A stretch of 42,889 nucleotides of DNA, taken from contig CAIQPS010000033.1 in the NCBI GenBank assembly GCA_903873715.1, positions 1 to 42,889 on the forward strand. Direction: 5' to 3'. The notes beneath the pieces were generated by a model. That model did no database searches. It had not been told where the DNA came from and worked only from the letters and a program-made list of their open reading frames with translations. Positions within the stretch are counted from its first letter, which is position 1; each line of letters opens with the position of its first letter. This DNA comes from an uncultured Actinomycetes bacterium (GTDB lineage: Bacteria; Actinomycetota; Thermoleophilia; RBG-16-64-13). The translations under genes were made by a program, and so were the position numbers. Below are positions 11,614 through 40,241 of this stretch, in pieces.

Positions 11614-11654
11614 GGGCGTCTGTCCCTTCATCCCGACCAGAAATGTCTCGCTCA

Positions 11655-11696
11655 ATGATACACCTGTTGCACTAAGCGATACAGAAATGCTACAAA
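11655..11696. promoter_or_regulatory. Candidate IclR operator in divergent promoter region
   Basis: GATACA occurs at 11657-11662 and 11678-11683, exactly 21 bp apart. The 33-bp stretch 11657-11689 matches the minus-strand element 40239-40207 at 25 positions. On the plus strand, ATGATA (11655-11660) and GATACA (11678-11683), or TTGCAC (11667-11672) and TACAAA (11691-11696), could act as -35/-10 pairs for the Cys-rich protein gene. On the minus strand TATCAT is a possible -10 for the iclR gene. Binding here would affect both genes. Confidence 0.6.
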
Positions 11697-18164: not shown

Positions 18165-18195
18165 GCCGTCGCGTCCCTCGGCTGGTGAGGCTCAG
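18161..18195. terminator. Inverted repeat between convergent kinase and flavoprotein genes
   Basis: CTGAGCC (18161-18167) pairs with GGCTCAG (18189-18195) over a 21-nt loop. The repeat includes the stop region of the kinase gene and the end of the large minus-strand operon. The stem is short and has no U-tract, so this is a weak call. Confidence 0.3.
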
Positions 18196-19871
18196 CCCAC
18201 CCTTCCTCCGAGGTACTCGTCCTCGCCGAGCAGTTCCACCGGGTACTTCTCCCGATAGCCGAGCGCCGGGTCCGGCCGCCACTCGGGCGGCAGCGGCTGC
18301 TTGACCACAGCCATGGCGCCGTCGCGCTCCACCAGCTTGACCCAACACAGCCAGTTCTCGTCGTCCCTGAAGGGGAAGTCCTCGCGGTAGTGGGTGCCGC
18401 GGCTCTCCTCCCGCGCGAGGCCCGCCCGCAGCTTCATCTCGGCGTTCAACAGCATGTTGCGGGTCTCGTGAGCCTCGCGTAGGCCGTGAGGGTCATCGGC
18501 TTTGAGGAGAGGCGCATACTTCTGCTGCAGGTACATGATCTGGCTGAGCGCCGCTTCCAGACGGCTCCTCTCCTTCACGTACATCACGTAGTAGGGGAAC
18601 ATGATGTTCTGCAGGAGCCGGGTGACCCAAGCAGGCGAGAATCCTCGCTGTCTGGACAGGGGTGCGAGCATCTCCTCCCGGAGAGTCTCGAGCACGCCAT
18701 TGCCGGCCACCGGCACCGCCTCGAGCTTGGCATACTCGGCGGCCGCCCTTCCGGCGCGGGCCCCCTGGACGGCCGAACCGGCGCAGGAACAGCCGAACCC
18801 CGCGTATCCGGCCCCGTTCTGCATGGAGCAGAGCGCATCCCCGGCGGCCCAGAGGCCGGGCACGTTCGAGGCCCCGAACAGGTCCTGCGGGAACACGCCT
18901 TCGCCCTTGTGGTTGGACATGCCCGGCGTGGAGAACCCCGGTGACTTCGCGAACGGTCCTCCCAGGTAATCGCCCTTCTCGTCCCTTGCCCCGGGGATGC
19001 CGCCCGGCGGCGCGACGAACCGGGCGTCGATGGGAAGCCCCCCGTCGTGGACCCCATACACGGCCGAGATGCGCAGCCCCAACCGGCGGGCGTCGAGGTG
19101 GTCGGCGGGCTCCGTGGGCCCGGGCGGGCCGCCGCCCAGCTCGGTGGCGGCCTTCATGGGACCGGGGTCGACTTCCACCAGAGGGTTGGCCGGCCTGGCC
19201 GGGTGGGCGTCGTTGAACTCCTTGCCGGATATCTCCGCCCCCACCCGGTACGCCATGGCGTCGCCGTCGGCGGTGGCGGCACTGCAGAAGTAGCCCATTC
19301 CCAGGGGCTTGAAGGACGCCGGGCCCGCCGCCACGACCGTGGCCTTCGCCAGGATGGTGCACGCCTGCCCGCTCTCCATGTGGAACCCCACGGCCCCGAT
19401 GACCTTGTCTTCGGGCTTCACCAGACCGGTGATCATCACCCGCTCGATCACGTCCACGCCGCAGGCGAGTACCTTGCCGCGCATCGCGTCGCCGGCCCCG
19501 ACCACCTCGATGGACCGGGTGACCGTGCCGGGCTGGTAGTAATAGGGTCGGCCCGTCTGGGCGCCCCAGGCGGAGACCTCCTGGTAGCGGTCGTACGACT
19601 CGGCCATCAGGATGTCGACGAAGTCCATGTTGTTGAGGTACTCGCCCGAGAGCTTGAACTGCTCCAGATACTGCTCCCGGGTGATCCCCTTGGTGTCCTT
19701 GAAGACGAACCAGGAGTTGGCCCAGGGCGTCAGCCCCGACCGCCCGGTGCGGCCCTTGACGGCCATGACCACCCTGGCCCCGGCTTCGCGCGCCTTGACG
19801 GCGGCGAAGCACCCCGCGAAGCCCCCTCCGATGACGAGGACGTCGGTCTCGAGTGTCATCAGCTCGCTCAT
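18192..19871 (-). CDS. FAD-dependent flavoprotein D (fumarate reductase/AprA-like)
   Basis: A 559-residue flavoprotein of the fumarate reductase / succinate dehydrogenase / APS reductase alpha superfamily. It begins with the FAD-binding motif DVLVIGGGFAGCFAA and has the second FAD segment VPGLWAAGDALCSMQNGAGYAG. The C-terminal helical domain shows HETRNMLLNAEMKLRAG and the capping motif ESRGTHYREDFPFRDD. The position that holds the FAD-linking His in SdhA/FrdA is replaced (GRSGLTPWAN), so FAD should be non-covalent. It is the last gene of the operon, starting 5 bp after the GltD-like gene. Substrate unknown; close relatives are flavoproteins A and B in the same operon. Confidence 0.85.
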   Translation of the reverse strand: MSELMTLETDVLVIGGGFAGCFAAVKAREAGARVVMAVKGRTGRSGLTPWANSWFVFKDTKGITREQYLEQFKLSGEYLNNMDFVDILMAESYDRYQEVSAWGAQTGRPYYYQPGTVTRSIEVVGAGDAMRGKVLACGVDVIERVMITGLVKPEDKVIGAVGFHMESGQACTILAKATVVAAGPASFKPLGMGYFCSAATADGDAMAYRVGAEISGKEFNDAHPARPANPLVEVDPGPMKAATELGGGPPGPTEPADHLDARRLGLRISAVYGVHDGGLPIDARFVAPPGGIPGARDEKGDYLGGPFAKSPGFSTPGMSNHKGEGVFPQDLFGASNVPGLWAAGDALCSMQNGAGYAGFGCSCAGSAVQGARAGRAAAEYAKLEAVPVAGNGVLETLREEMLAPLSRQRGFSPAWVTRLLQNIMFPYYVMYVKERSRLEAALSQIMYLQQKYAPLLKADDPHGLREAHETRNMLLNAEMKLRAGLAREESRGTHYREDFPFRDDENWLCWVKLVERDGAMAVVKQPLPPEWRPDPALGYREKYPVELLGEDEYLGGRVG

Positions 19872-19875
19872 CCCG

Positions 19876-21546
19876 TCACCGCCCCAACTCGACGACGTTC
19901 CAGCCGTGCAGCGACCCCAGGAGCTGCCCCTCGGTGACCGCTATCGCATCGACCGGGCAGTACTTCTGGCACAGTTTGCACACCTGGCAGCTGTCGACAT
20001 ACGCGATGCGCGAACGGCTGCCGCAGGTGAGACAACGCTCGGCCTCCCGGTGCGCCTGGGCGGCACTCAGGCCGCCTGCCACCTCGGCCAGATCGGCGCG
20101 GCGCTCCGCGGCCGGCCGCACCGGCGCCTCCAACCGGTCCAGCATCTCCACCTTCTCCTTGGGTGGCGGCGCCGCCACCACCGGGGCTTCCTGGGCGTCC
20201 TCGGCGGGCTCGCCGCTCAGAGAACGGGCCACCGCCTCCGCCGCCCGCTTGCCCGCCGCCAGCGCCTCCACCACCGTGGAAGCGCCGGTCACCGCGTCAC
20301 CCGCGGCAAAAAGGTCGGACGCCGCGGTCGACCCGTCCTTCGCCGCCGCGATGCGGCCGCGCGCATCGACCTCGAAGCCCGCCGGCACCACCGCCGCGTC
20401 CGGCGCCTGACCGGTGGCCACCACCACCATGCCTGCGGGGACGGTCTGCGGGAGCACGCACTCGCCGTACACAGGCGCGAACCGGCCGTCGTCGTCTCGG
20501 ACGCTCAGGCATTCCACGCAGCGGATGCCCGCCACGCGGCCGTTCTCCACCACGAAGGAATCCACGCCTCGCGACGGCAGGATCTCGACGCCCTCTTCCT
20601 GAGCCTGGTCGATCTCTTCCGAGAGGGCGAGCATGCTGTCCTTGAGCCCGCGTTCCAACTGTTCGAGGCAGACGACGGTGACCCGCGCGGCTCCCAGGCG
20701 GACAGCCGTCCGAGCCGCATCCAGCGCCACACTCCCACCGCCGACCACGGCCACGACCGCCCCAGCGCACGATGCGGACCCCGCCCGCGCCGCCCCCAGG
20801 AACTCCATGGCGCTGACGATGCCTTCGGCGTCGCCGCCGGGCGCCGCCAGCCCCATGGGCTTCGCCGCGCCGGTGGCCGCGACGACCGCCCGGTACCCTT
20901 GGGCGCGCAGTCCGTCCACTGTGACGTCGACCCCGACGCGGACGCCGGTGCGGAACTCGACGCCCAGCGCGCGGTAGGCGGCGATCTGCGCATCGAGGAC
21001 GTCCTCGGGCAGACGGAAGGCCGGCACCGCCGTGCGCAGCATCCCGCCCAGACTCTCATCCTTCTCGAAGACTGTCACCGCCAGGCCCTGCCGGGCGAGG
21101 AAGTACGCCGCAGAAAGACCCGCCGGGCCCGACCCGATCACGGCCACCCGGCCTTGGGTGGCGGGCGCCGGCGGCGCCGCAGGCGCCCCGGCGGTGTTCC
21201 GCAGCAGATGGTCGCCCAGGTAGCGCTCCAGGGCGTTGATGTTCACCGGAGCGTCGACGGCGTTCCGGCTGCAGTCCGTCTCGCACGGGTGAGGGCACAG
21301 CCGGCCGGTGACCGCCGGCATCGGGTGGCACTCGGCAAGGATGGCGGCGGCCGCGTCGATCATGCCCATCTTGAGCAGGTCGTGATACTCGCGCTGCCGC
21401 AGACCCAGTGGGCAGGCGGCGCTGCAGGGCGACACCTCCACCGGGCACTCAGGTGCGGTGTCCAGGCGGAAGACATCCATCGGGCAGGACTCGACGCAGG
21501 TGCCGCACCCGACACATTTATCGAGATCGATGTTCGATACGGGCAT
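19876..21546 (-). CDS. GltD-like NAD(P)H oxidoreductase with extra ferredoxin domains
   Basis: A 556-residue multidomain electron-transfer protein. It has an N-terminal ferredoxin motif (CVGCGTCVESCP), then a GltD-type cysteine segment (CSAACPLG, CHPMPAVTGRLCPHPCETDC). The FAD Rossmann motif is VIGSGPAGLSAAYFLARQG and the NAD(P) Rossmann motif is VVAVVGGGSVALDAARTAVRLGA. A second FAD motif (DLFAAGDAVTGASTVVEALAAGKRAA) precedes a C-terminal Cys-rich region (CLTCGSR, CQVCKLCQKYCPVDAI). In the glutamate synthase family this module moves electrons between NAD(P)H and iron-sulfur clusters. Sandwiched between ferredoxin 3 and flavoprotein D, it is the likely link between the pathway flavoproteins and the NAD(P)H pool. 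No glutamate synthase large subunit is nearby. Confidence 0.87.
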   Translation of the reverse strand: MPVSNIDLDKCVGCGTCVESCPMDVFRLDTAPECPVEVSPCSAACPLGLRQREYHDLLKMGMIDAAAAILAECHPMPAVTGRLCPHPCETDCSRNAVDAPVNINALERYLGDHLLRNTAGAPAAPPAPATQGRVAVIGSGPAGLSAAYFLARQGLAVTVFEKDESLGGMLRTAVPAFRLPEDVLDAQIAAYRALGVEFRTGVRVGVDVTVDGLRAQGYRAVVAATGAAKPMGLAAPGGDAEGIVSAMEFLGAARAGSASCAGAVVAVVGGGSVALDAARTAVRLGAARVTVVCLEQLERGLKDSMLALSEEIDQAQEEGVEILPSRGVDSFVVENGRVAGIRCVECLSVRDDDGRFAPVYGECVLPQTVPAGMVVVATGQAPDAAVVPAGFEVDARGRIAAAKDGSTAASDLFAAGDAVTGASTVVEALAAGKRAAEAVARSLSGEPAEDAQEAPVVAAPPPKEKVEMLDRLEAPVRPAAERRADLAEVAGGLSAAQAHREAERCLTCGSRSRIAYVDSCQVCKLCQKYCPVDAIAVTEGQLLGSLHGWNVVELGR

Positions 21547-21549
21547 CCT

Positions 21550-21912
21550 TCATCGTCCTTTGCTCGGGGGCCCCCAGCCGCCCACCGGCGGCCGCACATA
21601 TGCGGGAGGCGGGTCCGCCATCCCCAGACGGAACTGCTCGCCCGTCTCCTTGCGCTTCCACCCGACCTGCTGGCAAAGCGGGTGTTCCATCCGGATGGCA
21701 CCGGGCGACGGGCAGTGCGCCACACAGCAGCCGCAGAACCAGCACTCGTCGGGATACACGAGCACCGGGGGCTCGCCCGGTCCGGGACTCGGCGCCAGCA
21801 CGTCGCAGCGGCACACCTCGACGCAGGCGTTGCACTGCGTGCACAGGTCCGCGTCGAACTGGATGGCCCGGTTGGGCGTCAGGGGGTTGTTGACGAGGTG
21901 GGCGTCGGCCAT
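21550..21912 (-). CDS. Ferredoxin 3, 2x[4Fe-4S] (AprB-like)
   Basis: A 120-residue soluble iron-sulfur protein with two cluster motifs, CTQCNACVEVC and CWFCGCCVAHCPSPGAI. The tail of about 45 residues (GWKRKETGEQFRLGMADPP) recalls the AprB extension that wraps around AprA. It starts 4 bp after flavoprotein C and ends 4 bp before the GltD-like gene, so it probably transfers electrons between those two. The first motif has Arg rather than Pro after its last Cys, which may tune the potential. Confidence 0.87.
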   Translation of the reverse strand: MADAHLVNNPLTPNRAIQFDADLCTQCNACVEVCRCDVLAPSPGPGEPPVLVYPDECWFCGCCVAHCPSPGAIRMEHPLCQQVGWKRKETGEQFRLGMADPPPAYVRPPVGGWGPPSKGR

Positions 21913-21915
21913 GGG

Positions 21916-23961
21916 TCAGCCCTCCGCCCCGGTGCGCGCCGCACTGCCGGCCACCCGCCCGGCGCCGTCGCCCCGGCCGCTGTGAGCCGCATAGTTCTCG
22001 GCCGACGATCCCGCGTACGGCGCCTGCCGCCAATAGTCCCAGGGCAGGTCCCGGGTGCGGACGGCCGGGCCGTCGCGCCGCACCGTCAGCAGCTTGTCCC
22101 ATTCGGGCGGGTCCATCTCCGGATAGTCGATGCGCTTGAAGCCCAGGGCCTCGCTGCTGGCTCTGCGTGCGAGCGAGGCATGCATCATCGTCTCGCCGAC
22201 GGTCAGCCGGACGCCGCACTCCAGGGTGCGCATGAGCTCGTGCGGGTTGCGGGCACATGCGCCGGCCAGTTCGCCCCGGCGGATCCCATCCAGCCATTCC
22301 AGCCCCAACCGCAGGGTGTTCTCGCTGCGGTACTCGCCGCAGTAGTCCTGCATGACCCGGCAGAGGCCGGCCTGCAGTTCCTTCCAGCCCATGCCTTCGC
22401 TGCGGTTCACCGGGGCGTAGACCCGGGTCTTCTCCTTGTCGATCTGGGCGCGGGCCACCGAAGGCGCCCGCGCGGTGCGGGCATACTCCGCGGCCTTGCG
22501 TCCGGCATAGCGCCCCGTGCAGGCCGAAGCCGAATGGTCCGCCCCGCCGGCCAGTTGCACGCCGGCCGCGTAAAGGCCTTCCAGAGAGGTGCGCAAATCC
22601 CAGTCGAAGTGGACACCTCCCCCATCCACCAGGAAGGCCGATTCTCGCCACTGCCGCGCCGACTGGCCGGCCCACCAAGGCCTTGGTCCGTAGGCGTCGG
22701 GAGCCATCACCGGGGCCTGCAGCAGGTCCTTGTCGGGGTCGAACCCGGCCTGGGAGTACACGTCGTAGACGGGGATGCGGCACTTGCCTTCCTGCGCCAG
22801 CATGAGTCCGAAGATGGCCCGGCGCTCGTCCTCGGCCATGCCCGGGAGGTCGGCGTAGAGGGGTAGGGTGAATTCGCCCCGCGCGATCCGCTCGGGCAGG
22901 TCCGGTGCCAGAGAAGGGCCCCGGAACTCGTAGGCCAGACGCCCGCCGTAGAGGAAGTACTTCTGCCCGGGCGCGGGCCGGTGCCGCTCCGCGTGGCTCG
23001 TCAGAAGCCGCCCGTCGCGGTCCACCCACGGGATCTCCTTGCCGGTCGCGTCCACCACGTTGCAGGCGTACCAGGTGTTGTGGGAGTTGCCGCTGCCGTA
23101 CGCGGTGTAGCGGAAGCCACCCGGGTGGGGCCCGCTCTTCTCCATGAGCGCGAGCTCGCCGCCGGCGTCCCAGGCCATGGCGCAGCCGTCGCCGGCACAG
23201 TTGGGGTCGTCGTGTATGGCGGCGAAACCCTGCAACTCCGTGGAGAACACCCACAGCCGCAGAGGCTGCGCCGTCGCCAGCACGGTGGCCTTCGCCCGGA
23301 ACACGTAGAACTCGCCCGTGCGGACGTTCACCGCCGTCGCCCCCACCACCCGGGCGCCCCGCTCCCCGCCCTCGGAGAGCAGACTGGTGGCCATCACCCG
23401 GTCGAAGATGGTCACGCCGAGCCGCTTCAACTCGCGATGCAGTGCCGGCTTGAACTCCCAGCCGAACACCCGCAGCGTGTGCCGGCCCGTGTAGTCGTAG
23501 GCGAAGAGCAACTTGGTCCCCTCGTCGCGGAACTCGGACCCCGCGAACTCGTCGCCGGTGTCGCGTATCCGCGCCCCCATGCTCTCGAGGTCGAGGAGGG
23601 TCTCGTAACTCTCCCTGGCCATGATGTAACAGGTGATGCCGTTGCCGTACTCGTTGGTGATCCCGTAGGGATAGGTGTCCACCACCCGCGCGAACTCCTC
23701 CGGCGTGATGTCGCAGCAGGGATTGCCCACCGCGCCGTGCCAGTGATCGACGCCCGCTCCACCTGAGCCGCTCCGGATCACCGCTCCCTTGTCGAGCACG
23801 GCCACGCGCGCGCCGTCCCGGGCCGCGTTGATGGCCGCGTGGCAACCGGCGACTCCGCCGCCCACCACGAGGACGTCGAACTCGGCCTCGGTCTCCCGGT
23901 CGTAGCGGACCGGGTAGGGCCAGGCGCTCCCAGTGCTACTCGTCGTCGACACCGGTGGCAT
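21916..23961 (-). CDS. FAD-dependent flavoprotein C (larger, AprA-like C-terminus)
   Basis: A 681-residue flavoprotein, about 120 residues longer than flavoproteins A, B and D. FAD motifs are DVLVVGGGVAGCHAAINAARDGARV and SLEGLYAAGVQLAGGADHSASACTGRYAG. The FAD-His position is occupied by IRSGSGGAG, so covalent flavin is not expected. The C-terminus lacks the ESRGTHYREDFP motif of its paralogues and instead has SSEALGFKRIDYPEMDPPEW, closer to APS reductase alpha-type proteins. ATG 23961 overlaps the end of the amidohydrolase gene by 26 bp and has no clear ribosome binding site, suggesting translational coupling. It is paired with ferredoxin 3 just downstream. Confidence 0.85.
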   Translation of the reverse strand: MPPVSTTSSTGSAWPYPVRYDRETEAEFDVLVVGGGVAGCHAAINAARDGARVAVLDKGAVIRSGSGGAGVDHWHGAVGNPCCDITPEEFARVVDTYPYGITNEYGNGITCYIMARESYETLLDLESMGARIRDTGDEFAGSEFRDEGTKLLFAYDYTGRHTLRVFGWEFKPALHRELKRLGVTIFDRVMATSLLSEGGERGARVVGATAVNVRTGEFYVFRAKATVLATAQPLRLWVFSTELQGFAAIHDDPNCAGDGCAMAWDAGGELALMEKSGPHPGGFRYTAYGSGNSHNTWYACNVVDATGKEIPWVDRDGRLLTSHAERHRPAPGQKYFLYGGRLAYEFRGPSLAPDLPERIARGEFTLPLYADLPGMAEDERRAIFGLMLAQEGKCRIPVYDVYSQAGFDPDKDLLQAPVMAPDAYGPRPWWAGQSARQWRESAFLVDGGGVHFDWDLRTSLEGLYAAGVQLAGGADHSASACTGRYAGRKAAEYARTARAPSVARAQIDKEKTRVYAPVNRSEGMGWKELQAGLCRVMQDYCGEYRSENTLRLGLEWLDGIRRGELAGACARNPHELMRTLECGVRLTVGETMMHASLARRASSEALGFKRIDYPEMDPPEWDKLLTVRRDGPAVRTRDLPWDYWRQAPYAGSSAENYAAHSGRGDGAGRVAGSAARTGAEG

Positions 23962-25165
23962 GCATGATGTTCTTGTTGGGCTTGCCGGTCATGCGCAGGC
24001 CTTCCGGGTCCGGGTACTTGATCTGCTCCCGCGGGATGAAGGGCACGCTGGCGGCCGCGTCAGCGCCGAAGATGTCCGGGCGGCCTTCGGGGAACATCCG
24101 CGGATAGGGCACCGGCAGCTTGTACAGCTTGGCCGCCGTGCCGCCCATGATGAGGTTGATCTCGTCTTGGGTGAGCCAGTCGCCCACCCGGTCGATGGTC
24201 CGCAGGCCCCAGCCGTAGAAGTCGGGCTGATAGGTGGGCACCGCCGGCCAGTCTTTGTAGCCGAACATCATCAGAGACATGGTCTCGCGGTACTCGAGTG
24301 CCTTCACCTTCGGGCCCCACTTCTCGACCCCCCGCCGCACTATGTGCTGAGGGACGTTCCCGTAGTCGTGGCCCCAGGTGAGCCGCGCGGCGCTCACGCC
24401 GGCGTCGAAGGCCACCTCGAACTGCTTCTCGCACCAGCCCCCGGTCTCCATCCAGACGTTGGGAAGCCCGGCGACGACCGTGTACATCTCCCGGATGCCG
24501 TCCAGGCCGCGGGTCCACTCGTCCTCCACGCAACCGTGGGTCTGCATGATCTTGGCGTTCGGGTTCTCCATGGAGATGCGGGCGAGCAACTCGGTGAGGG
24601 TCCATTCCCCTTTGCGCAGGAAGACGAACTGGTCGTGGCAGAGCACCGGCACGTCGTACTTGGTGGCCAGTTCGCAGAGTGCGGCCCACTCCTCGACCCG
24701 CTCCTCGAAGTCGCACGGCCCTTCGGCCCCGGGCACCTGGAGACTGCGCGCGGCCGATCCCGGCGCGAACTCGCCTATGCCCACGAACCAGCCGGTCGCG
24801 AGCGCCTCGTCCACCTCGGCCAGGGCGGCCTTGAAGGTCCAGGGCTTCTCGCCCCGCATGGCGGCGAGGACGGTCTTCTGGTCGCTGCAGCAGGCGCGGA
24901 ACCGGTCGGGGAAGCGCTTGACCAGCTTGGCCTGGCTCTCGTTGGTCGTCCCGGGGATGCTCGGCAGCAAAACCGCCATGTCGACGCCGTAGCGATCCAT
25001 GTCGTACAGCGTCAGGAAGCAGTTGTCGAACGGCTGGACCTCCGCGTGCAGCCCGGTCCATTCCTCGTTCTCCACCATCTCCCACCCCGCGTCCGTGGCC
25101 GGCTGGTAGAGCGTGGTGATGTGACAGTGCGTATCCACGACGTAGCGGGCGATGGAGCGGTTCAT
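23936..25165 (-). CDS. Metal-dependent amidohydrolase (amidohydrolase 2 family)
   Basis: A 409-residue TIM-barrel hydrolase/decarboxylase of the family that includes ACMSD and gamma-resorcylate decarboxylase. Expected metal ligands are visible: His13 and His15 in DTHCHI, His177 in CHDQF and Asp267 in WGHDYG, with His210 (QTHGC) as a further active-site candidate. ATG 25165 has GGAGG 6 bp upstream; about 36 upstream codons in frame were excluded for lack of similarity and because they overlap the MBL 2 end. Its position between the MBL hydrolases and flavoprotein C suggests that it acts on a ring-opened or carboxylated intermediate. Hydrolysis and decarboxylation are both possible. Confidence 0.84.
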   Translation of the reverse strand: MNRSIARYVVDTHCHITTLYQPATDAGWEMVENEEWTGLHAEVQPFDNCFLTLYDMDRYGVDMAVLLPSIPGTTNESQAKLVKRFPDRFRACCSDQKTVLAAMRGEKPWTFKAALAEVDEALATGWFVGIGEFAPGSAARSLQVPGAEGPCDFEERVEEWAALCELATKYDVPVLCHDQFVFLRKGEWTLTELLARISMENPNAKIMQTHGCVEDEWTRGLDGIREMYTVVAGLPNVWMETGGWCEKQFEVAFDAGVSAARLTWGHDYGNVPQHIVRRGVEKWGPKVKALEYRETMSLMMFGYKDWPAVPTYQPDFYGWGLRTIDRVGDWLTQDEINLIMGGTAAKLYKLPVPYPRMFPEGRPDIFGADAAASVPFIPREQIKYPDPEGLRMTGKPNKNIMHATGVDDE

Positions 25166-25217
25166 TGACGACCTCCGTTTGTCGAGGGAACAAGTGACGT
25201 TGAACGACCAGCCGGCA

Positions 25218-26135
25218 TCAGACCGGCACCTCCAGACCATCCTCGGCGAACACCACACGTCCGCTGTATCCACCGTTCGAGAACACCGACTGCGTGCGGC
25301 GCACCAACGCCTCGTCCACGGGCAGCGGCCACAGGTGGGTGAGCACCACCGTGCCCACCGCGGCCTCCGCGGCCACGCGCACCACCTCGGGCAGGCTCAT
25401 GTGACTCGGAGCACCCCCGGGTGGCGGCGCCGAACCGTCCGCCCAAGGATTGGCATCGACCACCAACACATCGGCTCCGCGCGCGAGGTCGATCAACCGG
25501 CGGTCGAACGCCGTGTCTCCCGAGACCACCACGGCCTTGCCGTCGGCTTCGAACCGGTAGGCCAGGTTGAGGAGCGAGTGGGTGAGCTCGGCGGTCTTCA
25601 CCCGCACCCCTCCCAACTGGAACTCCCTGGACCCGGTGAGTTCGCGGATGTCGACTCCGCGGAACATCCCTTCCTCGTCGATGCCGGCCCGGTCTCCGCC
25701 GCGAAGGCGATAGCGCAGGTCGTCGCCGAAGAAGGTCACCAGGAACCGGTGGAGTTCGGCGGTCCCGGGCGGGCCCACCAGGTCCAGCCGTTTGCCTCCC
25801 TCGCTCCAGCGGGTGGTGACCATGTCGAAGTAATCGGTCACATGGTCTTGATGCAGATGGGTGAACAGGATCCCGGCGATGTCCCGGTGGCGATACGGGC
25901 CGTACGAGCCGCCTTTCAGGAGGCTCAGAGCGGAACCGTTGCCGGTGTCCACCAGGTAGTAAGCGCCCCGGTATTGGATGCCGGTGCAGGCGCTCGCCCG
26001 CGCCGGGTTGAGCTCGGGGGAACCGCTGCCGAGAGTCAGCACGCTGAACGTGGTCTGGTGCGGGTACGGAGCCAATCCCGTCCCGGCCATGCCCGGCAGC
26101 CTCATGCCGCCCGGGTTTGGAGCCTCGACGGTCAT
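25218..26135 (-). CDS. MBL-fold metal-dependent hydrolase 2
   Basis: A 305-residue metallo-beta-lactamase-fold protein of the RNase Z/AtsA-like group. The metal motif THLHQDH gives His93, His95, Asp97 and His98, with SGDTAFD and THLWPLP supplying the later ligands. No signal peptide is seen, so it should be cytosolic. ATG 26135 overlaps the stop of the DUF1566 lipoprotein gene (ATGA), so the two are translationally coupled. It is a paralogue of MBL 1, sharing the segments RASACTxxQYRG and YRFEADGKAVVVSGDTAFD. Likely a hydrolase of an ester, lactone or similar bond; substrate unknown. Confidence 0.86.
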   Translation of the reverse strand: MTVEAPNPGGMRLPGMAGTGLAPYPHQTTFSVLTLGSGSPELNPARASACTGIQYRGAYYLVDTGNGSALSLLKGGSYGPYRHRDIAGILFTHLHQDHVTDYFDMVTTRWSEGGKRLDLVGPPGTAELHRFLVTFFGDDLRYRLRGGDRAGIDEEGMFRGVDIRELTGSREFQLGGVRVKTAELTHSLLNLAYRFEADGKAVVVSGDTAFDRRLIDLARGADVLVVDANPWADGSAPPPGGAPSHMSLPEVVRVAAEAAVGTVVLTHLWPLPVDEALVRRTQSVFSNGGYSGRVVFAEDGLEVPV

Positions 26136-27520
26136 GCAGCGTCTCTCACCAGGCGGACGTAGTTGTAGATGCGGATGGCGTCGCCCTGCGGGCCGCGGCC
26201 GTACGGGAACTGCGCCGGATCGCCGACCTTCGGGTCCGAGCGCTGCGCGCCGGCACCGTGGACGTCCATCCAACTGGCGCCTTCCACGGCCATACCGGCC
26301 GGCGGACCGCCCGCGCCGGGACCACCCAAGCCGGCCGGCGCTTCGCCGGCGCCCGGCATGGTACCGGGCTTGAAGTAGCCCATGGCCCGGCCGAAAGCCA
26401 GATAGTCGGCGGTGTCGGCCTGACCGCCACCACCAAGGTGAGTGGTGGTGGTCCAGTAGCAGGGGAAGTCGGGCTGGCCGGCCTCGTTGGTTATCTGCGT
26501 GCATTTGAAGAGCGGGTCTATCGCCGCCGACTGGGTCGTGTCGGGCGACCGGCTGTAGTCGATGATGCTCTGCAGCTCCTTGACACCCGGCACCCGCCAG
26601 TCGTTGTGGCCCAGGTAGTTCTTGCTGTTCATCTCCTGCGCCCAGGCCAGCGCTTCCCTCCAATCGAGGCCTTTGCCGCTATCGGCCTGAGCCCACATCA
26701 GCCCGGTGGCCTTGTCTGTGATGGTGCCGTCCTTGTTGTCCACGAAGTCGTTCTTGCCGTAGGCCGGGTTGCCGCGGACCAGCTGCACCACGAACTTCTT
26801 GACGCTGCCGTCGGGCATGTGGAGGCCGTAGCCCTTGATGCGCCCGTCGGCGAAGTTCACCCCGAAGAGGGTGTCGTCGCCGCCCATGGTCTTCGAGACG
26901 TAGAGAGTGCTCGACGCGTACTGCGAGTCGATGATCCGCTCGCCTTCGGACGGGATACCGTACGCGAAGGAGAAGTAGTCGACGTCCAGGAAGGGCACCA
27001 TCCCGGTGGCGTCCGGGGCCATGGGGTTCGGGTCGGTGCCGACGAACAGGATGAGCGAGTACACCTCTTTGATGGTCGGCAGGCGCCAGTCGTCGTAGCC
27101 GGCGAACTTCTTGGCGTTCACCACGGCCGGGTACTTCTGCACCTCGTCCCAGGTCATCTTGTCGGCCTTGTTGATGACCCCGTCGCCGTTGGTGTCAGGC
27201 GTCTGCTGCCACATGAGGCCGGTGACGTTGTCGATGACGGCAAGGCCGCTGGCGCTCTTGGTGTAGCTCGGCGGGTTGCGCGTGAACTGCGCGTCCTGGC
27301 CGTAGAAATCGGCACCCGGAGCGGGCGGGGCCGCCAGCTCCTTGGTGGCGTCGTAGCAGGCGGTCTGGCCAGAATCCACGATCGGATAGGGCAGCGCTGC
27401 CTTAGCACTCGTCTCGGTAGTCACCTCATCACCTCCGCAGGAAGTCATCATCAGCAGGGCCAGCGCCGCAGCGGCGACAGGCCCGAAAAGAGCACACATC
27501 CTTGATGGACCGCGCCTCAT
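26132..27520 (-). CDS. DUF1566-domain lipoprotein
   Basis: A 462-residue exported protein. The signal peptide ends in a lipobox (LMMTSC-G) and is followed by two DUF1566 (Lcl C-terminal, C-type-lectin-like) units, recognised by VTGLMWQQT...DDWRLPTIKEVYSL and ATGLMWAQA...NDWRVPGVKELQSI. Near the C-terminus a Gly/Pro/Ala-rich insert precedes the conserved ending DVHGAGAQRSDPKVGDP...IRIYNYVRLVRD. The start ATG 27520 overlaps the MBL 1 stop by four bases, and the gene's own stop overlaps the MBL 2 start. DUF1566 domains are thought to bind ligands. Its outside location would suit substrate capture for the ABC importer, which is an inference. Confidence 0.8.
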   Translation of the reverse strand: MRRGPSRMCALFGPVAAAALALLMMTSCGGDEVTTETSAKAALPYPIVDSGQTACYDATKELAAPPAPGADFYGQDAQFTRNPPSYTKSASGLAVIDNVTGLMWQQTPDTNGDGVINKADKMTWDEVQKYPAVVNAKKFAGYDDWRLPTIKEVYSLILFVGTDPNPMAPDATGMVPFLDVDYFSFAYGIPSEGERIIDSQYASSTLYVSKTMGGDDTLFGVNFADGRIKGYGLHMPDGSVKKFVVQLVRGNPAYGKNDFVDNKDGTITDKATGLMWAQADSGKGLDWREALAWAQEMNSKNYLGHNDWRVPGVKELQSIIDYSRSPDTTQSAAIDPLFKCTQITNEAGQPDFPCYWTTTTHLGGGGQADTADYLAFGRAMGYFKPGTMPGAGEAPAGLGGPGAGGPPAGMAVEGASWMDVHGAGAQRSDPKVGDPAQFPYGRGPQGDAIRIYNYVRLVRDAA

Positions 27521-28476
27521 ACCGCCACCTCCAAGCCGTCCCGGGCGACCGTCACCCGGCCGTCGAAGCCCGCCGCCTTGACGGCCGCCTGTAGCGCCGC
27601 CTCGTCCACCGCGCCGCCGCGAAGGTGAGTGAGCACCACATGCTTCACACCGGCGGCGGCCGCCATCGCGGCCACCTCTTCCAGGGTCGCGTGGGGCTTC
27701 ACCGTGAAATCCCCGCCGTAGGGGCCCTGCGGCCGGTAGCGCGGAGCCAGATCCTCGATGTCGGGCATCACGAACTGGGACGCTCCGCCCCACCGCTCGT
27801 CGCAGTCGGCCACCAGCAGGTCGGCCCCCCTGGACAGCTCGATCAGCCGTTCGTCGAACGCCGTATCCCCCGAGACCACCACGGCCTTGCCGTCCACCTC
27901 GAACCGGTAGCCGACGTCGTACATCGTGTGGGTGAGCTTGGCGGTGCTGACCTGGAGGTCGTCCAGGGCGAAGCTCTCGCCCCCCTTGATCTCCCGTATG
28001 GCGACTCCCTCGAACACTCCGGTGCCGTCCTTGCCGAAGCGGATCTCGCGTAGCATCCGGTAGCACAGGTCGTCATGGAAGAACGTGGTGAAGAACTCGT
28101 GCAAGGCGGCCACACCGGGCGGCCCGACGACGGTCACTTCCTTGCCCCCGGTCAACCACCGGTTGGTCATGATGTCGAAGTAGTCGTTGGTGTGGTCCTG
28201 GTGGAAATGGGTGAAACACACCGCGGCTATGTCCTTGAAGGGGAAGACGCCCCTCTCGCCCTTGAGCATGCTGTTCTGGGCCCCGTTACCCATATCCACC
28301 ACGTAGTACCTGCCCCGGTACTGCAGCATGGTGCAGGCGCTCGCCCGCTCCAGGTTGGGCTGTGGATTGCCGGTGCCCACCGTGATGACGCTGAACGCCG
28401 TGTCGTGGGGGTAGGGCGGCATGACCGGGGGCGGACCTCCTCCGGGCTGCCAGATGCTGTCCAGTGACTGCGCCAT
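27517..28476 (-). CDS. MBL-fold metal-dependent hydrolase 1
   Basis: A 319-residue paralogue of MBL 2. The zinc motif THFHQDH places ligands at His90, His92, Asp94 and His95, with SGDTAFDERL and a late THLRGG His. It contains an extra segment after VADCDERWGG (about residues 230-265) not seen in MBL 2, so substrate pockets may differ. ATG 28476 is 9 bp downstream of the stop of the cytosolic DUF1566 gene, and its stop overlaps the DUF1566 lipoprotein start. The N-terminal 25 residues are Pro/Gly-rich but lack a signal peptide. Confidence 0.86.
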   Translation of the reverse strand: MAQSLDSIWQPGGGPPPVMPPYPHDTAFSVITVGTGNPQPNLERASACTMLQYRGRYYVVDMGNGAQNSMLKGERGVFPFKDIAAVCFTHFHQDHTNDYFDIMTNRWLTGGKEVTVVGPPGVAALHEFFTTFFHDDLCYRMLREIRFGKDGTGVFEGVAIREIKGGESFALDDLQVSTAKLTHTMYDVGYRFEVDGKAVVVSGDTAFDERLIELSRGADLLVADCDERWGGASQFVMPDIEDLAPRYRPQGPYGGDFTVKPHATLEEVAAMAAAAGVKHVVLTHLRGGAVDEAALQAAVKAAGFDGRVTVARDGLEVAV

Positions 28477-28485
28477 CGCGATGCC

Positions 28486-29667
28486 TCAGATGTGGTGCCG
28501 CGGCGGCCGGGGCGCGTCGAGGTTGCGCACGGCCCGGACGTAGTTGTAGATGCGGATGGTGTCCTTCTGTGGGCCGGCGCCTTCCGGGAAGCAGGCCGGA
28601 TCGCCCACCATGGGGTCGGAGCGCATGGCGCCGGCTCCGTGGACGTCGTATTCGTCCTGAGGAAGCGGAGAGGTCTTGCCGGTGGCCTTGCCGAAGGCCA
28701 CGTACACGGCCTGCCCCAGCATGTCGATGAACGGCGTGCTGCTCCAGAACCAGCCCTTCGGGTCCCTGATCTGGAAGATGGGGTTGATGGCCGGGATGAA
28801 GTCGTAGTCGGTGATGCTGTGCAGTTCTTTCTGGTCGGGCAGCCGCCAGTCGTCGTAGCCGGCCAATTCCAGGTGCTCGCAGTAGTCGAGGGCTTCCTGC
28901 CAGTTCCGACCCTTGCCGTCGTCGCACTTCTGCCACATCAGCCCCGTCGCCAGATCGCTGATGGTGCCGTCGTGGTTGTCGACGAACTCGTTGATGCCGT
29001 AGACCGGCCCGCGCACGCAGCGGATGCACCAGGTCTGGAGCCCGTTATAAGGATGGTTGTCCTTGGGATAGCTCTTGATGCGGCCGTCGGTGAAGTTGTA
29101 GCCGAAGAACGTCGGGGCGATGTGCATGACGCCCGGCTCGATCTTCTTCTCGCCGAAGTCCTGCCACCAATCGGAGAACAGCACCGACTTGGAGATGTAC
29201 GACGTGGTGGTCACCAACTGGGAGTCGATGAACCGGTAGCCGTCGATGTTCGCCGGCCCGTAGGTGAGGTCGAAGTAGCGGTCGTCGAAGTAGGCGCGGC
29301 GGGGGCGCATGGTGCCGTTGGCATCCACCAGGGAGATGAGCTCCTTGATGCTCGGCACCCGCCAGTCGGAGTGGCCGCCGAGGCGCAGCCTCGCGGCGTA
29401 GTCCTCGGCCTCGTACCAGGTGACCCGCCCTTCCAGCGAGTCCTCCCGGGCATCCGTCGTCTTCTGCCACATGAGACCGGTGTTGAGGTCGGAGACGGTT
29501 CCGTCGCCGTTGTCCCGATATGCGGGCTCCAGCTTGGGATAGTGCGCGTCCTGCCCGTAGAACGGCTCGCCCGGCTCCGGGCGGGGGATCTCACCGCGAG
29601 GCCCGAAGTACCGCTTCATGTTCGTCCCCACGATGGGGTAGGCCCGCTTCTTCTTCACGTCGTCCAT
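28486..29667 (-). CDS. DUF1566-domain protein, no signal peptide
   Basis: A 393-residue protein with the same two DUF1566 units as the lipoprotein downstream (NTGLMWQKT...DWRVPSIKELISL and ATGLMWQKC...DDWRLPDQKELHSI) and the same ending (DVHGAGAMRSDPMVGDP...IRIYNYVRAVR). It starts MDDVKKKRAYPIVG from ATG 29667, with GGAG close upstream, and has no hydrophobic leader, so it should stay in the cytoplasm. An in-frame extension upstream overlaps ferredoxin 2 and was rejected. It is paired with MBL 1. Whether it binds the pathway substrate or acts as a partner of the hydrolase is not known. Confidence 0.8.
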   Translation of the reverse strand: MDDVKKKRAYPIVGTNMKRYFGPRGEIPRPEPGEPFYGQDAHYPKLEPAYRDNGDGTVSDLNTGLMWQKTTDAREDSLEGRVTWYEAEDYAARLRLGGHSDWRVPSIKELISLVDANGTMRPRRAYFDDRYFDLTYGPANIDGYRFIDSQLVTTTSYISKSVLFSDWWQDFGEKKIEPGVMHIAPTFFGYNFTDGRIKSYPKDNHPYNGLQTWCIRCVRGPVYGINEFVDNHDGTISDLATGLMWQKCDDGKGRNWQEALDYCEHLELAGYDDWRLPDQKELHSITDYDFIPAINPIFQIRDPKGWFWSSTPFIDMLGQAVYVAFGKATGKTSPLPQDEYDVHGAGAMRSDPMVGDPACFPEGAGPQKDTIRIYNYVRAVRNLDAPRPPRHHI

Positions 29668-29714
29668 GTGACTCCACTCCGTCTCAGTCTTCGCGGCGGC
29701 GCCGCTCGATCGGC

Positions 29715-29933
29715 CTAGCCCCAGCCCAGCAGGTAGGGCTTGGGCCAGCCGGGTTTCAGGTAGATGGCTTTCTCCGGGCACTCCAGACACTGGCCGCAGA
29801 GCATGCAGTCGGCCTGGTAGCGGATCTCGGCCTTGCGGGTCTCCCGGTTCATCCGGATGACGTCCATGGGGCAGTTGCGCACGCAGATGCCGCAGCCGTT
29901 GCAGAGGGCGAAGTCGATGCTCTCGATGGCCAT
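29715..29933 (-). CDS. Ferredoxin 2, 2x[4Fe-4S], atypical second motif
   Basis: A 72-residue ferredoxin. The first cluster motif is standard: Cys11, 14, 17 and 21 in CNGCGICVRNCP. The second reads CMLCGQCLECP, with Cys43, 46, 49 and 52. The last spacing is therefore two residues, not the usual three seen in its paralogue ferredoxin 1 (CMNCEQCALDCP). The gene begins 2 bp after flavoprotein B ends, so it is the probable electron partner of that protein. Confidence 0.88.
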   Translation of the reverse strand: MAIESIDFALCNGCGICVRNCPMDVIRMNRETRKAEIRYQADCMLCGQCLECPEKAIYLKPGWPKPYLLGWG

Positions 29934-29935
29934 GG

Positions 29936-31642
29936 CTACCTCCCCTCTCCTGCGGCGTTCGGCGCGCCGCTTCCCGGCACCTCGTTGGGCAGCCGCATCG
30001 GGTAGCGCTCCTCATAGCTCTTGGCGGCATCCGGGCGCCACTCGGCCGGGATGGGCTGCTTGAAGGTGACCATCCGCCCGTCCTCCTGCTTCAGGCGCAT
30101 CCAGGCGAGCCATTCCTCGTCGTTGCGGCCGGGGAAGTCTTCCCGGTAATGCGTGCCGCGGCTCTCGGTGCGGGCCAGCGAGGAGCGGACCTTCATCTCC
30201 GCGTTGAGGATCATGTTCTTGGTCTCGTGAGCGAGGCGCAGCTCGTGATCGTCGCGGGCATAGAGCTTCGGCGCGATGTGGTCGCGCAGGAACTCGACGG
30301 TGCTCAAGGCCGCCTGCAGCCGGTCGCCGTGCTTGACGTACAGCACGAAGTACGGCGCCAGGGTGTTCTGCAGCACCTGGGTGACCCAGTTGGGCGTGAA
30401 CCCGCCCTTGCGCTCGAGCGGCTCCAGAAGGCGAGCGGTGGCTGCCGCCACGGCCTTCTCGTCGATGCCTCCGTCCGCGCCGAGGCCTTTGGCCTCGGCG
30501 GCAGCGCCCAACCCCGCCCGCGCCCCGGTGGCGGCCGCATGGGCAGTGGCAAAGCCGAACCCCGAATAGTTGGCGCCGATGAAGCACGTGCCGCAGCTGT
30601 CGCCGGCGGCGTACAGCCCCGGGACCTCGGTGGCGCAGTCGTCGTTCACCGGCACGATGCCGCCCGTCGCGTGCCCGAACATGGAGCCGTGGCCTCCCGG
30701 GCCGCTCACGGGCAGTACGCCCCGCTTGCCCAGATCGGCGATGAGCGGCGCCCGGCCCTCGTGGGCCTCGTACTCCGCGTCTATCCAGCCGTGCCAGGCG
30801 ACACCGCGCGCGGCGACCTCATCGCCCTCGGCGTTGAACAGATGCGGGGCGGAATACATCCCGGGCTGGGCCGCCGAGTGACCGGCCGAGAAGAACAGGT
30901 ACATCGGCGGCCAGGCAGGGTCCTTGGGATTGGTGCTGTGCGGCGAGACGAACTCCTTGCTGGTGATGGTCGCCCCGGCGCGGTAGGCCATGGCGTGACC
31001 ATCGGCTGTGAGCTCGTGCGTCGGGTAGCCGACGGGCCTGAACCCGCCGCCGCCCGCACTCATGACCACGGCCTTGGCCTTGATGACCTCCACCCTGTTC
31101 CCCTCGATGGAGAAGCCGATCGCCCCGGCGACCCGGCCGTCCTGCAGGAGGAGCTCGGTCACCATAAACCTATCCTTGAGCTTCACCCCTATCTTGATGA
31201 GGTGTTTGCGCACCTTCTCGGGGAAGCCGGGCAGCCAATGCACCACTTCGCTGACGGTGGGCGGGAACTTGTGGGTGTCGGGCAGCACGATGTTGGCATG
31301 CGGATGCGGCAGCCGCACCACCCGGCCGTCCTTCTCCTCGAACTGCACCCCGTAGGACCTGAGGTCGGCGAGGCGTTCCCGGGAGTCGCGGAACACCAGC
31401 TCGTTCCAGTGCCTGTTGTTCATGTACTCGCCGATGACGTCGACCTGCTCCAGCCAGGCGGCGAGGTCGTTGCCGGCGTCGGGATCGAAGACCGCGGTGT
31501 CGCCGGCGTAGATGGTCTCGCCCGACTTGCTCACGTAGCCCTTGTCGGCGAGCAAGACGTTCAGCCCCTGTTCGCGCGCCTTGATGGCCGCGAACCAGCC
31601 GGCCATACCGCCACCGATGACGAGGACATCACATTCGATCAA
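29936..31642 (-). CDS. FAD-dependent flavoprotein B (fumarate reductase/AprA-like)
   Basis: A 568-residue flavoprotein of the same subfamily as A and D. FAD motifs are DVLVIGGGMAGWFAAIKAREQG and VPGLYAAGDSCGTCFIGANYSGFGFA. The C-terminal part contains HETKNMILNAEMKVRSS and ESRGTHYREDFPGRND. The covalent-FAD His position is replaced (SKSGETIYAGD). It is preceded by ferredoxin 1 (30 bp gap) and followed by ferredoxin 2 (2 bp gap). The protein contains no transmembrane helix or signal peptide, so it should be a soluble cytosolic reductase or dehydrogenase. Its electron acceptor or donor is probably one of the flanking ferredoxins. Confidence 0.87.
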   Translation of the reverse strand: MIECDVLVIGGGMAGWFAAIKAREQGLNVLLADKGYVSKSGETIYAGDTAVFDPDAGNDLAAWLEQVDVIGEYMNNRHWNELVFRDSRERLADLRSYGVQFEEKDGRVVRLPHPHANIVLPDTHKFPPTVSEVVHWLPGFPEKVRKHLIKIGVKLKDRFMVTELLLQDGRVAGAIGFSIEGNRVEVIKAKAVVMSAGGGGFRPVGYPTHELTADGHAMAYRAGATITSKEFVSPHSTNPKDPAWPPMYLFFSAGHSAAQPGMYSAPHLFNAEGDEVAARGVAWHGWIDAEYEAHEGRAPLIADLGKRGVLPVSGPGGHGSMFGHATGGIVPVNDDCATEVPGLYAAGDSCGTCFIGANYSGFGFATAHAAATGARAGLGAAAEAKGLGADGGIDEKAVAAATARLLEPLERKGGFTPNWVTQVLQNTLAPYFVLYVKHGDRLQAALSTVEFLRDHIAPKLYARDDHELRLAHETKNMILNAEMKVRSSLARTESRGTHYREDFPGRNDEEWLAWMRLKQEDGRMVTFKQPIPAEWRPDAAKSYEERYPMRLPNEVPGSGAPNAAGEGR

Positions 31643-31672
31643 GGTCGTACCTCCCCGGCTTCCCGGAACGTC

Positions 31673-31894
31673 TCAGCCCCAACTCGATATGAGCGGGACG
31701 GTCTTGTAGGGGGTCACGGTCACCGCTTCTTCCGGACAATCGAGCGCACACTGCTCGCAGTTCATGCACTCCTGGGGGTAGCGGATCACCGCTTTCTGCC
31801 CCGCTCGGTCCATGCGGATCACATCCATGGGGCAGCTGTCGATGCATATGCCACAGCCGGTGCAGAGGTCGAGGTCTATCTTCTCGATGGTCAT
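31673..31894 (-). CDS. Ferredoxin 1, 2x[4Fe-4S]
   Basis: A 73-residue ferredoxin with two complete motifs, CTGCGICIDSCPMDVI and CMNCEQCALDCPEEAV. It ends in a C-terminal tail (PYKTVPLISSWG) like the one in ferredoxin 2 (PKPYLLGWG). The ATG lies 1 bp after the SDR stop and the gene ends 30 bp before flavoprotein B. The pair resembles a simplified AprAB or flavoprotein/iron-sulfur module. Confidence 0.9.
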   Translation of the reverse strand: MTIEKIDLDLCTGCGICIDSCPMDVIRMDRAGQKAVIRYPQECMNCEQCALDCPEEAVTVTPYKTVPLISSWG

Positions 31895-31895
31895 C

Positions 31896-32657
31896 TCACA
31901 CCACCGCGGTCAGCCCGCCGTCGACGAACAGGATCTGCCCTGTCACGTAGTCCGAGGCAGGCGAGGCGAAGAACAACACGGGCCCGACGAGATCCTCGGG
32001 TTGCGCCCAGCGCCCCATCGGGATGCGCTCTATGAGACTGGCGGCGGCCACCGGATTGCCAAGGATTGAGGTGGTGAACTGCGTCTCCACGACGGTGGGC
32101 GCGATGGCGTTGACATAGATGCGCTGCGGGGCCCACTCCACCGCCAGTTGCCGGGTGAGCGCGTCGACTGCGCCCTTGCTGGCGCCGTAGTCGGCCATAC
32201 CTCCACGGGTGCCGTAGCTTGCCCTCACCGAGGAGATGTTCACGATCTTGCCGCCGCCATGCTCCATCATCTCTTTGCCGAACACCCGGCAGCAGATGAA
32301 CGTCCCCATGGTGTTCACCTCGAGGGTCTCCCGGACCTTGTCGAGAGGCACCGAGACCGAGGGCGTGCGGGCGGCCACCCCGGCCGCATTCACCAGGATG
32401 TCGACGCCATCCCAGAAGGTCTTCAGCTCGGAGGCGAGAGCCTCCACGGAAGCCTCGTCGGTGACGTCGACCGCGCGGGCCAGAGTCCGACAGCCGAAGG
32501 CGCGGACTCCGTCGGCCGCCGCTTCGGCCACCGCCAGGTCGCGGTCGGCTACGGCCACGTCCGCCCCATGTTGCGCCAACCCGGCTGCGAGCGCGCTGCC
32601 GATGCCGCCGGCGCCCACCACCAAGGCCTTCTTCCCGGTTATATCAAGAAGGTTCAT
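31896..32657 (-). CDS. Short-chain dehydrogenase/reductase (SDR)
   Basis: A 253-residue classical SDR, an NAD(P)-dependent oxidoreductase acting on alcohol/ketone groups. It has the nucleotide-binding loop VVGAGGIGSALA (an Ala-Gly variant of TGxxxGxG), NAAG at the expected place, the catalytic Ser in ISSVRAS and the YGASK Tyr/Lys pair. The C-terminus FFASPASDYVTGQILFVDGG is typical. ATG 32657 shares one base with the stop of flavoprotein A. In the operon it probably interconverts a hydroxyl and a keto group on the substrate. Confidence 0.92.
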   Translation of the reverse strand: MNLLDITGKKALVVGAGGIGSALAAGLAQHGADVAVADRDLAVAEAAADGVRAFGCRTLARAVDVTDEASVEALASELKTFWDGVDILVNAAGVAARTPSVSVPLDKVRETLEVNTMGTFICCRVFGKEMMEHGGGKIVNISSVRASYGTRGGMADYGASKGAVDALTRQLAVEWAPQRIYVNAIAPTVVETQFTTSILGNPVAAASLIERIPMGRWAQPEDLVGPVLFFASPASDYVTGQILFVDGGLTAVV

Positions 32658-34279
32658 CACTGCACCCCGCCTGCCGTGAGTGGCCTGTGCTCCGCCGACA
32701 CCGGACGCTTGAAGAGCTCCATGCCATCCCCGGCCCTCCTGAGGATCACCCATGCCAGCCACTGGCCGTCGTCGCGCACCGGGAAGTCCTCCCGGTAGTG
32801 GCAGCCGCGAGTCTCGGTCCTGAAAAGGGAGGCGCGCAGGCGCATCTCGGCGTTCAAGACCATGTTGCGGGTCTCGTGGACCAGCCGGAGCTCGTGCTGG
32901 TCGGTGGCGTAGAGCTTGGGCACCAGGTGGTCGCGGAAGAACTCCACGTTGGCCAGAGCCGCACGCAACCGGTCGCCGTGCTTGATATGCAGCACGTAGT
33001 ACGGGAGCACGGTGTTCTGCAGCATCTGGGTGACCCAGCGCGGCCCGAATCCGCCGGAGCGTCTCAGGGGCGCTGTGATGGCTTCAGCCGCACGCTCGAC
33101 ATCCGCCCCCGCCGGGTGGGCCGGGCCGCCGGCCCGCGCCGCATACGCGGCCGCCCCAGCCCCGGCATGGGCCCCGGTGACGGAACACCCGAGCACGGAC
33201 TGGCCTATCGCGGCGTAGGTCGCGCCCGACTGCATCGTCCCCAGGCTGTCCCCGGCCGCATACAATCCCGCGACATTGCAGGAACAATCGGTCCCGGCCG
33301 GCCGGATACCCTCGGCCTTGTGCACCGACATCCCGCCGGCCGCTCCACCCACCATGGGCCACCTGACACCGTCGGGCATCTCAATGAAGAGAGGTCCGTG
33401 CCCGGCATGGACCGCACGATCGAGGTCCAGATCGAGTACGCCCATGGGCGGCAGCGGATGGCCGTCCGAATCGAGGAACCGGCCCCGGGGCGGCCCGCCC
33501 CCTTCGGGATCGCGGCCGTATCTCCCGAACATGACCGAAGCGGCCTGGTCGAGTCTCGCGTGATGCGGGTCGGCGAACTCTTTGCCGGTGATCTCCGCGC
33601 CCACCCGGTAAGCCATGCAGTCGGCATCCGACGTGAGGTTGTCGATGGGCCACCTGCCCGGCCGGAACCCGCCGGCCCCAGCCGCCAGGACCACCGCCTT
33701 GGCGGTGAAGATGTCGACCGCGTCTTCGGCGTCGGCAGGTATCCCGGCCGCGCCCACGACCTGCCCCCCGGAGGTGAGCAACTCCACGATCATAGTGCGG
33801 TCAACGATCGTCGCCCCGTGCTTGAGCACCTGCCTCCGCAGGGTCATCGATGGTGCGCGGGTCTCCATCATGGCCGCCTTGCACGGCCCCACCGGCGGGC
33901 CGTCCCGCTGTGGCTCGACGCCGGCCCTGGCATCGCCGTCCGCCCCGAACCTCACGCCCCACGACAGGAGCTCCAGATAGCGTTCGTAGGATTCACGGAA
34001 ACAGAGTTCCGTCCACACGCGATCGTTGACGCTCTCGCCGATGGAGCTCACCTGCTCCATCCAGGCGTCCAGGTCATCCCCCCACTCGGGGTTGAAGACA
34101 CAGTAGCTGCCGGCGAACGGGGTCTGCCCCGACTTGCCTGCGAAGCCCTTGTCCACGAGGATGACCGAGGCGCCGGTCTGGCGGGCCTTGATGGCCGCCG
34201 TACACCCAGCGAGACCGCCACCGACCACAAGAACGTCGGCCTCGAAAGACCTTCGGACCTGTGACGTTCCCCTGCTCAC
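32657..34279 (-). CDS. FAD-dependent flavoprotein A (fumarate reductase/AprA-like), first gene of operon
   Basis: A 540-residue paralogue of flavoproteins B and D. FAD motifs are DVLVVGGGLAGCTAAIKARQTGA and VAGLYAAGDSLGTMQSGATYAAIGQS. The C-terminal part has HETRNMVLNAEMRLRAS and ETRGCHYREDFPVRDD. The covalent-FAD His is absent (GKSGQTPFAGS). GTG 34279 has GGGAG about 10 bp upstream. It opens the 14-gene operon, and the SDR gene follows with a one-base overlap. It lacks its own adjacent ferredoxin, so it may share ferredoxin 1. Confidence 0.86.
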   Translation of the reverse strand: MSRGTSQVRRSFEADVLVVGGGLAGCTAAIKARQTGASVILVDKGFAGKSGQTPFAGSYCVFNPEWGDDLDAWMEQVSSIGESVNDRVWTELCFRESYERYLELLSWGVRFGADGDARAGVEPQRDGPPVGPCKAAMMETRAPSMTLRRQVLKHGATIVDRTMIVELLTSGGQVVGAAGIPADAEDAVDIFTAKAVVLAAGAGGFRPGRWPIDNLTSDADCMAYRVGAEITGKEFADPHHARLDQAASVMFGRYGRDPEGGGPPRGRFLDSDGHPLPPMGVLDLDLDRAVHAGHGPLFIEMPDGVRWPMVGGAAGGMSVHKAEGIRPAGTDCSCNVAGLYAAGDSLGTMQSGATYAAIGQSVLGCSVTGAHAGAGAAAYAARAGGPAHPAGADVERAAEAITAPLRRSGGFGPRWVTQMLQNTVLPYYVLHIKHGDRLRAALANVEFFRDHLVPKLYATDQHELRLVHETRNMVLNAEMRLRASLFRTETRGCHYREDFPVRDDGQWLAWVILRRAGDGMELFKRPVSAEHRPLTAGGVQ

Positions 34280-34336
34280 GCGCGTACTGCTCCCTTTCCC
34301 TCACTCAGATGGTGACGATTTCCGTTGTTTTGAGGA

Positions 34337-34381
34337 CCGGCCTGCGGACCGGACGAGAGGCCTCTCGGTGCCGCAGGCCGG
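34337..34381. terminator. Large nested hairpin upstream of the flavoprotein operon
   Basis: CCGGCCTGCGG (34337-34347) pairs perfectly with CCGCAGGCCGG (34371-34381). The loop contains a second palindrome, CGAGAGGCCTCTCG (34354-34367). It lies between the ABC operon end and the flavoprotein A start, so it could end readthrough or sit in a leader region. No U-tract. Confidence 0.45.
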
Positions 34382-34407
34382 CAAAAGATCATGCTGCTTT
34401 CTTGGAA

Positions 34408-34436: not shown

Positions 34437-34467
34437 CCTATGGTCGCTTGCTACTCGAGTGCTGCTG

Positions 34468-36237: not shown

Positions 36238-36295
36238 GCTCCCTCCTAGTAACGGGCCCTTTTCCCGTCGGTGTCGGCGAACGCCTCCACCGTCA

Positions 36296-40189: not shown

Positions 40190-40206
40190 CAGCGGTTCTC
40201 CCCCTT

Positions 40207-40241
40207 CACAGCTGTATCGTCTAGTGACACAGCTGTATCAA
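40207..40241 (-). promoter_or_regulatory. ABC operon promoter with duplicated 12-bp operator
   Basis: On the minus strand GATACAGCTGTG occurs twice without mismatch (40239-40228 and 40218-40207), 21 bp apart or two helical turns. Each contains the palindrome ACAGCTGT. TTGATA (40241-40236) and GATACA (40218-40213) are 17 bp apart and can serve as -35/-10, so a bound regulator would cover the promoter. The element resembles the one next to the iclR gene at 11657-11689. Confidence 0.7.

Follow-up and report, generated by a model that had tools for sequence, protein, structure and literature searches.

Does a short DNA element shared by an iclR gene and an importer operon 28 kb away tie the regulator to the importer? 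The question is raised by a 42,889-nt stretch of DNA (the window), in which a 33-bp element beside an IclR-family regulator gene (site 1) has an inverted counterpart just before the first importer gene (site 2; Table 1). The original prediction, made by eye, held that this pair ties the IclR protein to the importer operon and perhaps to the catabolic operon. It proved right in substance: the operator pair is well supported computationally, and the regulator very likely controls both its own gene and the importer.

Table 1. Positions of the elements and genes discussed in the text
Feature	Positions	Strand	Sequence, basis or context
Site 1, beside iclR	11657-11689	+	GATACACCTGTTGCACTAAGCGATACAGAAATG
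Site 2, just before the importer gene	40239-40207	-	GATACAGCTGTGTCACTAGACGATACAGCTGTG
Element 1, putative IclR-type operator array	11644..11689	+	TGTCTC-gctcaat-GATACA-cc-TGTTGC-actaagc-GATACA; sequence, consensus scans
Element 1 half-sites	11644-11649, 11657-11662, 11665-11670, 11678-11683	+	
Element 2, putative tandem operator	40205..40239	-	GATACA-gc-TGTGTC-actagac-GATACA-gc-TGTGAA; upstream of first importer gene
IclR-family regulator, 279 aa	10774..11613	-	PF09339, PF01614
Cys-rich protein, 91 aa	11746..12021	+	AGGAGG Shine-Dalgarno; divergent from iclR
OppB/DppB-type permease, first importer gene	39233..40189	-	PF00528, PF19300
Rest of importer	34468..39236	-	
OppC-type permease	38340-39236	-	
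Two ABC ATPases	37288-38343, 36296-37291	-	
Substrate-binding protein	34468-36237	-	
Downstream catabolic genes: flavoproteins, SDR, ferredoxins, Lcl_C proteins, MBL-fold proteins, amidohydrolase	18192..34279	-	

Similarity of the two sites and its chance level

Direct comparison of the two sites gives 25 identical positions of 33, as had been claimed; each site has the two GATACA heads, with starts 21 bp apart, and CACTA is common to both. In 100 Markov-1 windows with the dinucleotide composition of the real window, the best match to site 1 reached 17-21/33. An exhaustive all-against-all comparison of 33-mers in the real window yielded 27 distinct inverted pairs at 25/33 or better, the pair of sites 1 and 2 included, nearly all of them in GC-rich coding sequence. 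The count of 25/33 is thus not decisive alone, and raw identity was discarded as proof of a shared function.

The spaced motif gives a sharper measure. Sites 1 and 2 are the only two places in the 3.33-Mb genome with a mismatch-free GATACA-N15-GATACA, and the fuller pattern GANACA-NN-TGTNNC-N7-GANACA, allowing one mismatch, has three matches in the genome, all within elements 1 and 2 (reversed-pattern control, 0). Single palindromes GATACANNTGTATC with up to two mismatches show no genome-wide excess (21 vs 46 in the control), and so no wider regulon is claimed. With just these two occurrences in an assembly that is 96.9% complete, the regulon would be small and local, comprising iclR, the importer and possibly the Cys-rich gene. 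The pattern is absent from 60 relatives, which are also without the iclR gene.

Anatomy of the elements and fit to published IclR operators

The earlier description of site 1 had overlooked a TGTCTC lying 7 bp to the left of the first GATACA. With this half-site included, the sequence directly gives a 40-bp array (11644-11683) of four alternating half-sites in the gap from which iclR and the Cys-rich gene diverge. The second palindrome of this array is poor, with only its left half fitting. Element 2 consists of two tandem 14-bp boxes with a 7-bp linker, their centres 21 bp apart; it stops 17 bp short of the GTG at which the first importer gene starts, directly next to the Shine-Dalgarno AAGGGGGAG of that gene.

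In a survey of IclR operators, Suvorova and Gelfand (2021) described a group 1 motif, GKTYCRYW3-4RYGRAMC, and a group 2 motif, TGRAACAN1-2TGTTYCA (PMC8222616). Three-box sites combine the two, with boxes alternating in direction; tandem sites lie 18-22 nt apart, and most centres fall within -20 to -80 relative to the gene start (PMC8222616). In the window, the best match to group 1 is at 11666 (15/17), with 11645 and 40214 (14/17) among the five places scoring at least 14, and the best group 2 score, 12/14, is reached at three places: 11656, 40225 and one coding site. A three-box consensus of 25 positions, built from the published group 1 and group 2 letters only and after the elements had been seen, scores 20/25 or more at just three window positions (22, 21 and 21), all in elements 1 and 2, and the maximum in 200 simulated Markov windows was 18-20/25.

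The 21-bp spacing falls within the survey's 18-22, as do the centres within its range of distances for the importer (about -44 and -23) and iclR (about -50); for the Cys-rich gene, the centre at about -82 is just outside it. The elements thus resemble the surveyed operators in their alternating boxes, group 1 and 2 scores and tandem spacing, but they have GANACA, mostly as GATACA, where the survey has GRAAC(A) as the half-site, and the array beside iclR has a fourth half-site, so that the three-box motif can be read there from both strands. The sites of PcaU, PobR and HmgR pair a palindrome with an external direct half-site (cited in PMC8222616), and a palindrome with an additional direct-repeat half-site is likewise present here. 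Elements 1 and 2 are almost certainly IclR-family operators.

It could still be argued that an unrelated regulator binds the elements or that their similarity is due to chance, given that agreement at 25/33 is by itself nothing unusual in so GC-rich a window. Such an account would have to accommodate the genome-wide uniqueness of the spaced motif, a fit to the IclR consensus that simulated windows never reach, the location at two gene starts and the same-geometry elements at paralogous iclR genes described below, and we regard it as very improbable.

The regulator and its paralogs

Membership of the regulator in the IclR family is clear, with 49.2 bits for the N-terminal HTH_IclR domain (PF09339, cut-off 22) and 104.9 bits for the C-terminal IclR_C domain (PF01614, cut-off 24). 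Its best NCBIfam match, over nearly the whole length, is BhcR (NF045644), at 136.9 bits far under the equivalog cut-off of 350, and it scores 126.4 bits against the PcaR/PcaU/PobR subfamily model (TIGR02431), below the curated cut-off of 284.75. The gene context also differs from that of PcaU, PobR and HmgR, consisting here of an Opp-type importer and flavoproteins. An in-frame ATG at 11631 offers an alternative start. The recognition helix reads LHKATTYRM; the survey associates a His at the corresponding residue of the helix with G or C as the third half-site letter (PMC8222616), whereas this letter is variable (T, G, A, C) in elements 1 and 2. No ortholog of the gene was found among 17 members of the bacterial family, the 60 relatives or wider genome contigs, the last giving one 26% match.

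Paralogous iclR genes were informative as to geometry. Among 48 iclR upstream regions from the bacterial family and relatives, with the present iclR contributing, the arrangement of a centre gap of 2 and a linker of 7 had the top z of 60 tested. Of the nine paralogs whose helix is of the SKTTAYRM type, eight have sites of the GGAATA-gc-TATTCC-N7-GGAAT type beside iclR, located 86-142 bp ahead of the gene or 58-120 bp past it, and the ninth has a GGAACA variant with unchanged geometry. With up to two mismatches, the GGAATA-type site was found at none of the other iclR loci examined, and across 21 whole genomes the pattern occurs mainly at iclR loci and in a few other places (control, 0). A paralog whose helix starts with LHKAT (G034:C74) has CGTCTC-N7-GAGACA, close to the half-sites of elements 1 and 2. 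The SKTTAYRM clade, from the same bacterial family, shares the X6-gc-X6'-N7-X6 layout beside iclR in identical geometry, but differs in its half-site (GGAATA), in protein sequence (about 44-48% identity) and in the neighbouring gene, which is oxidoreductase-like and not an importer. Judged from these sites, the geometry goes with the regulator group and the letters vary from clade to clade. The locus thereby provides a compact example of a three-box IclR operator of which the paralogs of one bacterial family retain the geometry and vary the letters, a combination useful for learning how IclR recognition helices read DNA.

Two further observations concern these paralogs in their own right. GGAATA-gc-TATTCC-N7-GGAATA adjoins iclR, with an oxidoreductase-like gene alongside, at L092 (G000:C20), L035, L047, L060 and other loci, which points to a second IclR regulon in the bacterial family. 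The iclR genes of the RMTAYRM type (G000:C110:43349, G010:C122:6398, G017:C140:56832) have a conserved upstream block, GATATCTCGATATT...TAGTATCG, that is probably an operator.

The adjacent IclR protein is the best candidate binder of elements 1 and 2, an assignment made by adjacency. Since seven IclR proteins are encoded in the genome and half-sites within the family look alike, the main binder of these IclR-family operators might instead be one of the other six. We consider this very unlikely, as one of the only two genomic copies adjoins the iclR gene in question, and the paralogs at C20 and C110:43349 come with sequences of their own, GGAATA sites and a GATATC-type block respectively. The proposed tie between the adjacent IclR and the importer is well supported by the consensus fit, the uniqueness of the two copies and the same-geometry elements at paralogous iclR genes.

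Proposed circuit

It is highly probable that the two elements are operators of the adjacent IclR protein, with repression of iclR itself and the importer as the likeliest action. The half-sites alternate (GANACA / TGTNNC) to form a 14-bp palindrome with a further box 7 bp off, and the 21-bp period, equal to two helical turns, would place two IclR dimers (a tetramer) on one face of the DNA. At iclR, the array between the divergent genes would overlap the probable promoter regions of both; at the importer, element 2 would follow the probable promoter and precede the Shine-Dalgarno of the leading gene. A sigma-70 promoter scan found no site above threshold near either element. Weak promoter-like hexamers are present upstream of element 2 (TTGACA-N17-GACATT), at 11692-11687 for iclR (TAGCAT) and at 11667 for the Cys-rich gene (TTGCAC), and from these we infer that the elements would lie at or over promoters.

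Most likely, IclR in its bound state would keep iclR itself, the importer and the downstream catabolic genes from being transcribed; its release or rearrangement would come from an effector, probably the compound taken up or one of its products. Alternatively, the adjacent IclR could bind both elements but act as an activator of the importer, a role that PcaU or PobR can take. Three-box sites have been described for these two regulators (cited in PMC8222616), and the protein gives a sub-threshold match to the PcaR/PcaU/PobR model. The place of element 2, between the probable promoter and the Shine-Dalgarno, is nevertheless downstream of the usual activator position, and activation is accordingly given a minor share of our confidence. 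Control of iclR and the importer by this regulator would be an ordinary local circuit, one well supported by computation. What had been a pattern seen by eye becomes a specific, testable two-site regulon, in which one regulator would act on the promoter region of its gene and on a long run of importer and catabolic genes.

The importer and the downstream gene run

The importer site heads an 18-gene run on the same strand, from 40189 to 18192, in which five importer genes are followed by thirteen others. Gaps in the run are at most 188 bp, values that are upper bounds, as some gene starts were chosen automatically and a few lie too far downstream; no minus-strand terminator-like site was found in the largest gap, which separates the importer from the catabolic genes (34279-34468). 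Being downstream on the same strand with such gaps, the catabolic operon is plausibly under element 2, and its genes could be part of the importer's transcription unit.

Upstream regions of eleven oppB homologs reach at best 15-18/25 on the three-box consensus, compared with 21 here. These low scores rule out the element as a general feature of oppB-type permease genes, and its absence from the homologs is as expected if it is confined to this circuit.

The content of the run is also of note. Four fumarate-reductase-like flavoproteins are encoded in it (18192, 21916, 29936 and 32657), and the flavoproteins, amidohydrolase, SDR and ferredoxins of 18192-34279 suggest a catabolic pathway, probably anaerobic. 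A gene pair for an Lcl_C-domain and a metallo-beta-lactamase-fold protein is tandemly duplicated in the region 25218-30030, where 25218-27520 resembles 27517-30030.

The divergent Cys-rich gene

The original prediction also placed the small Cys-rich protein in the same regulon. The 33-mer of element 1 lies 57-89 bp upstream of the ATG of its gene, a position that makes membership plausible. A more elaborate version of the circuit can be drawn from this arrangement, in which the half-site GANACA is outside the published consensus, the 40-bp dyad of four half-sites is readable both ways, and two dimers in alternative registers would set two divergent promoters, the second being that of a lineage-restricted Cys-rich protein belonging to the importer's regulon. 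We hold this version to be possible, though doubtful. The Cys-rich protein itself is nearly private: comparison with 295 other genomes of the phylum gave two remote relatives (38-40%), and a weak paralog is encoded at C24:56096 in the genome that carries the window.
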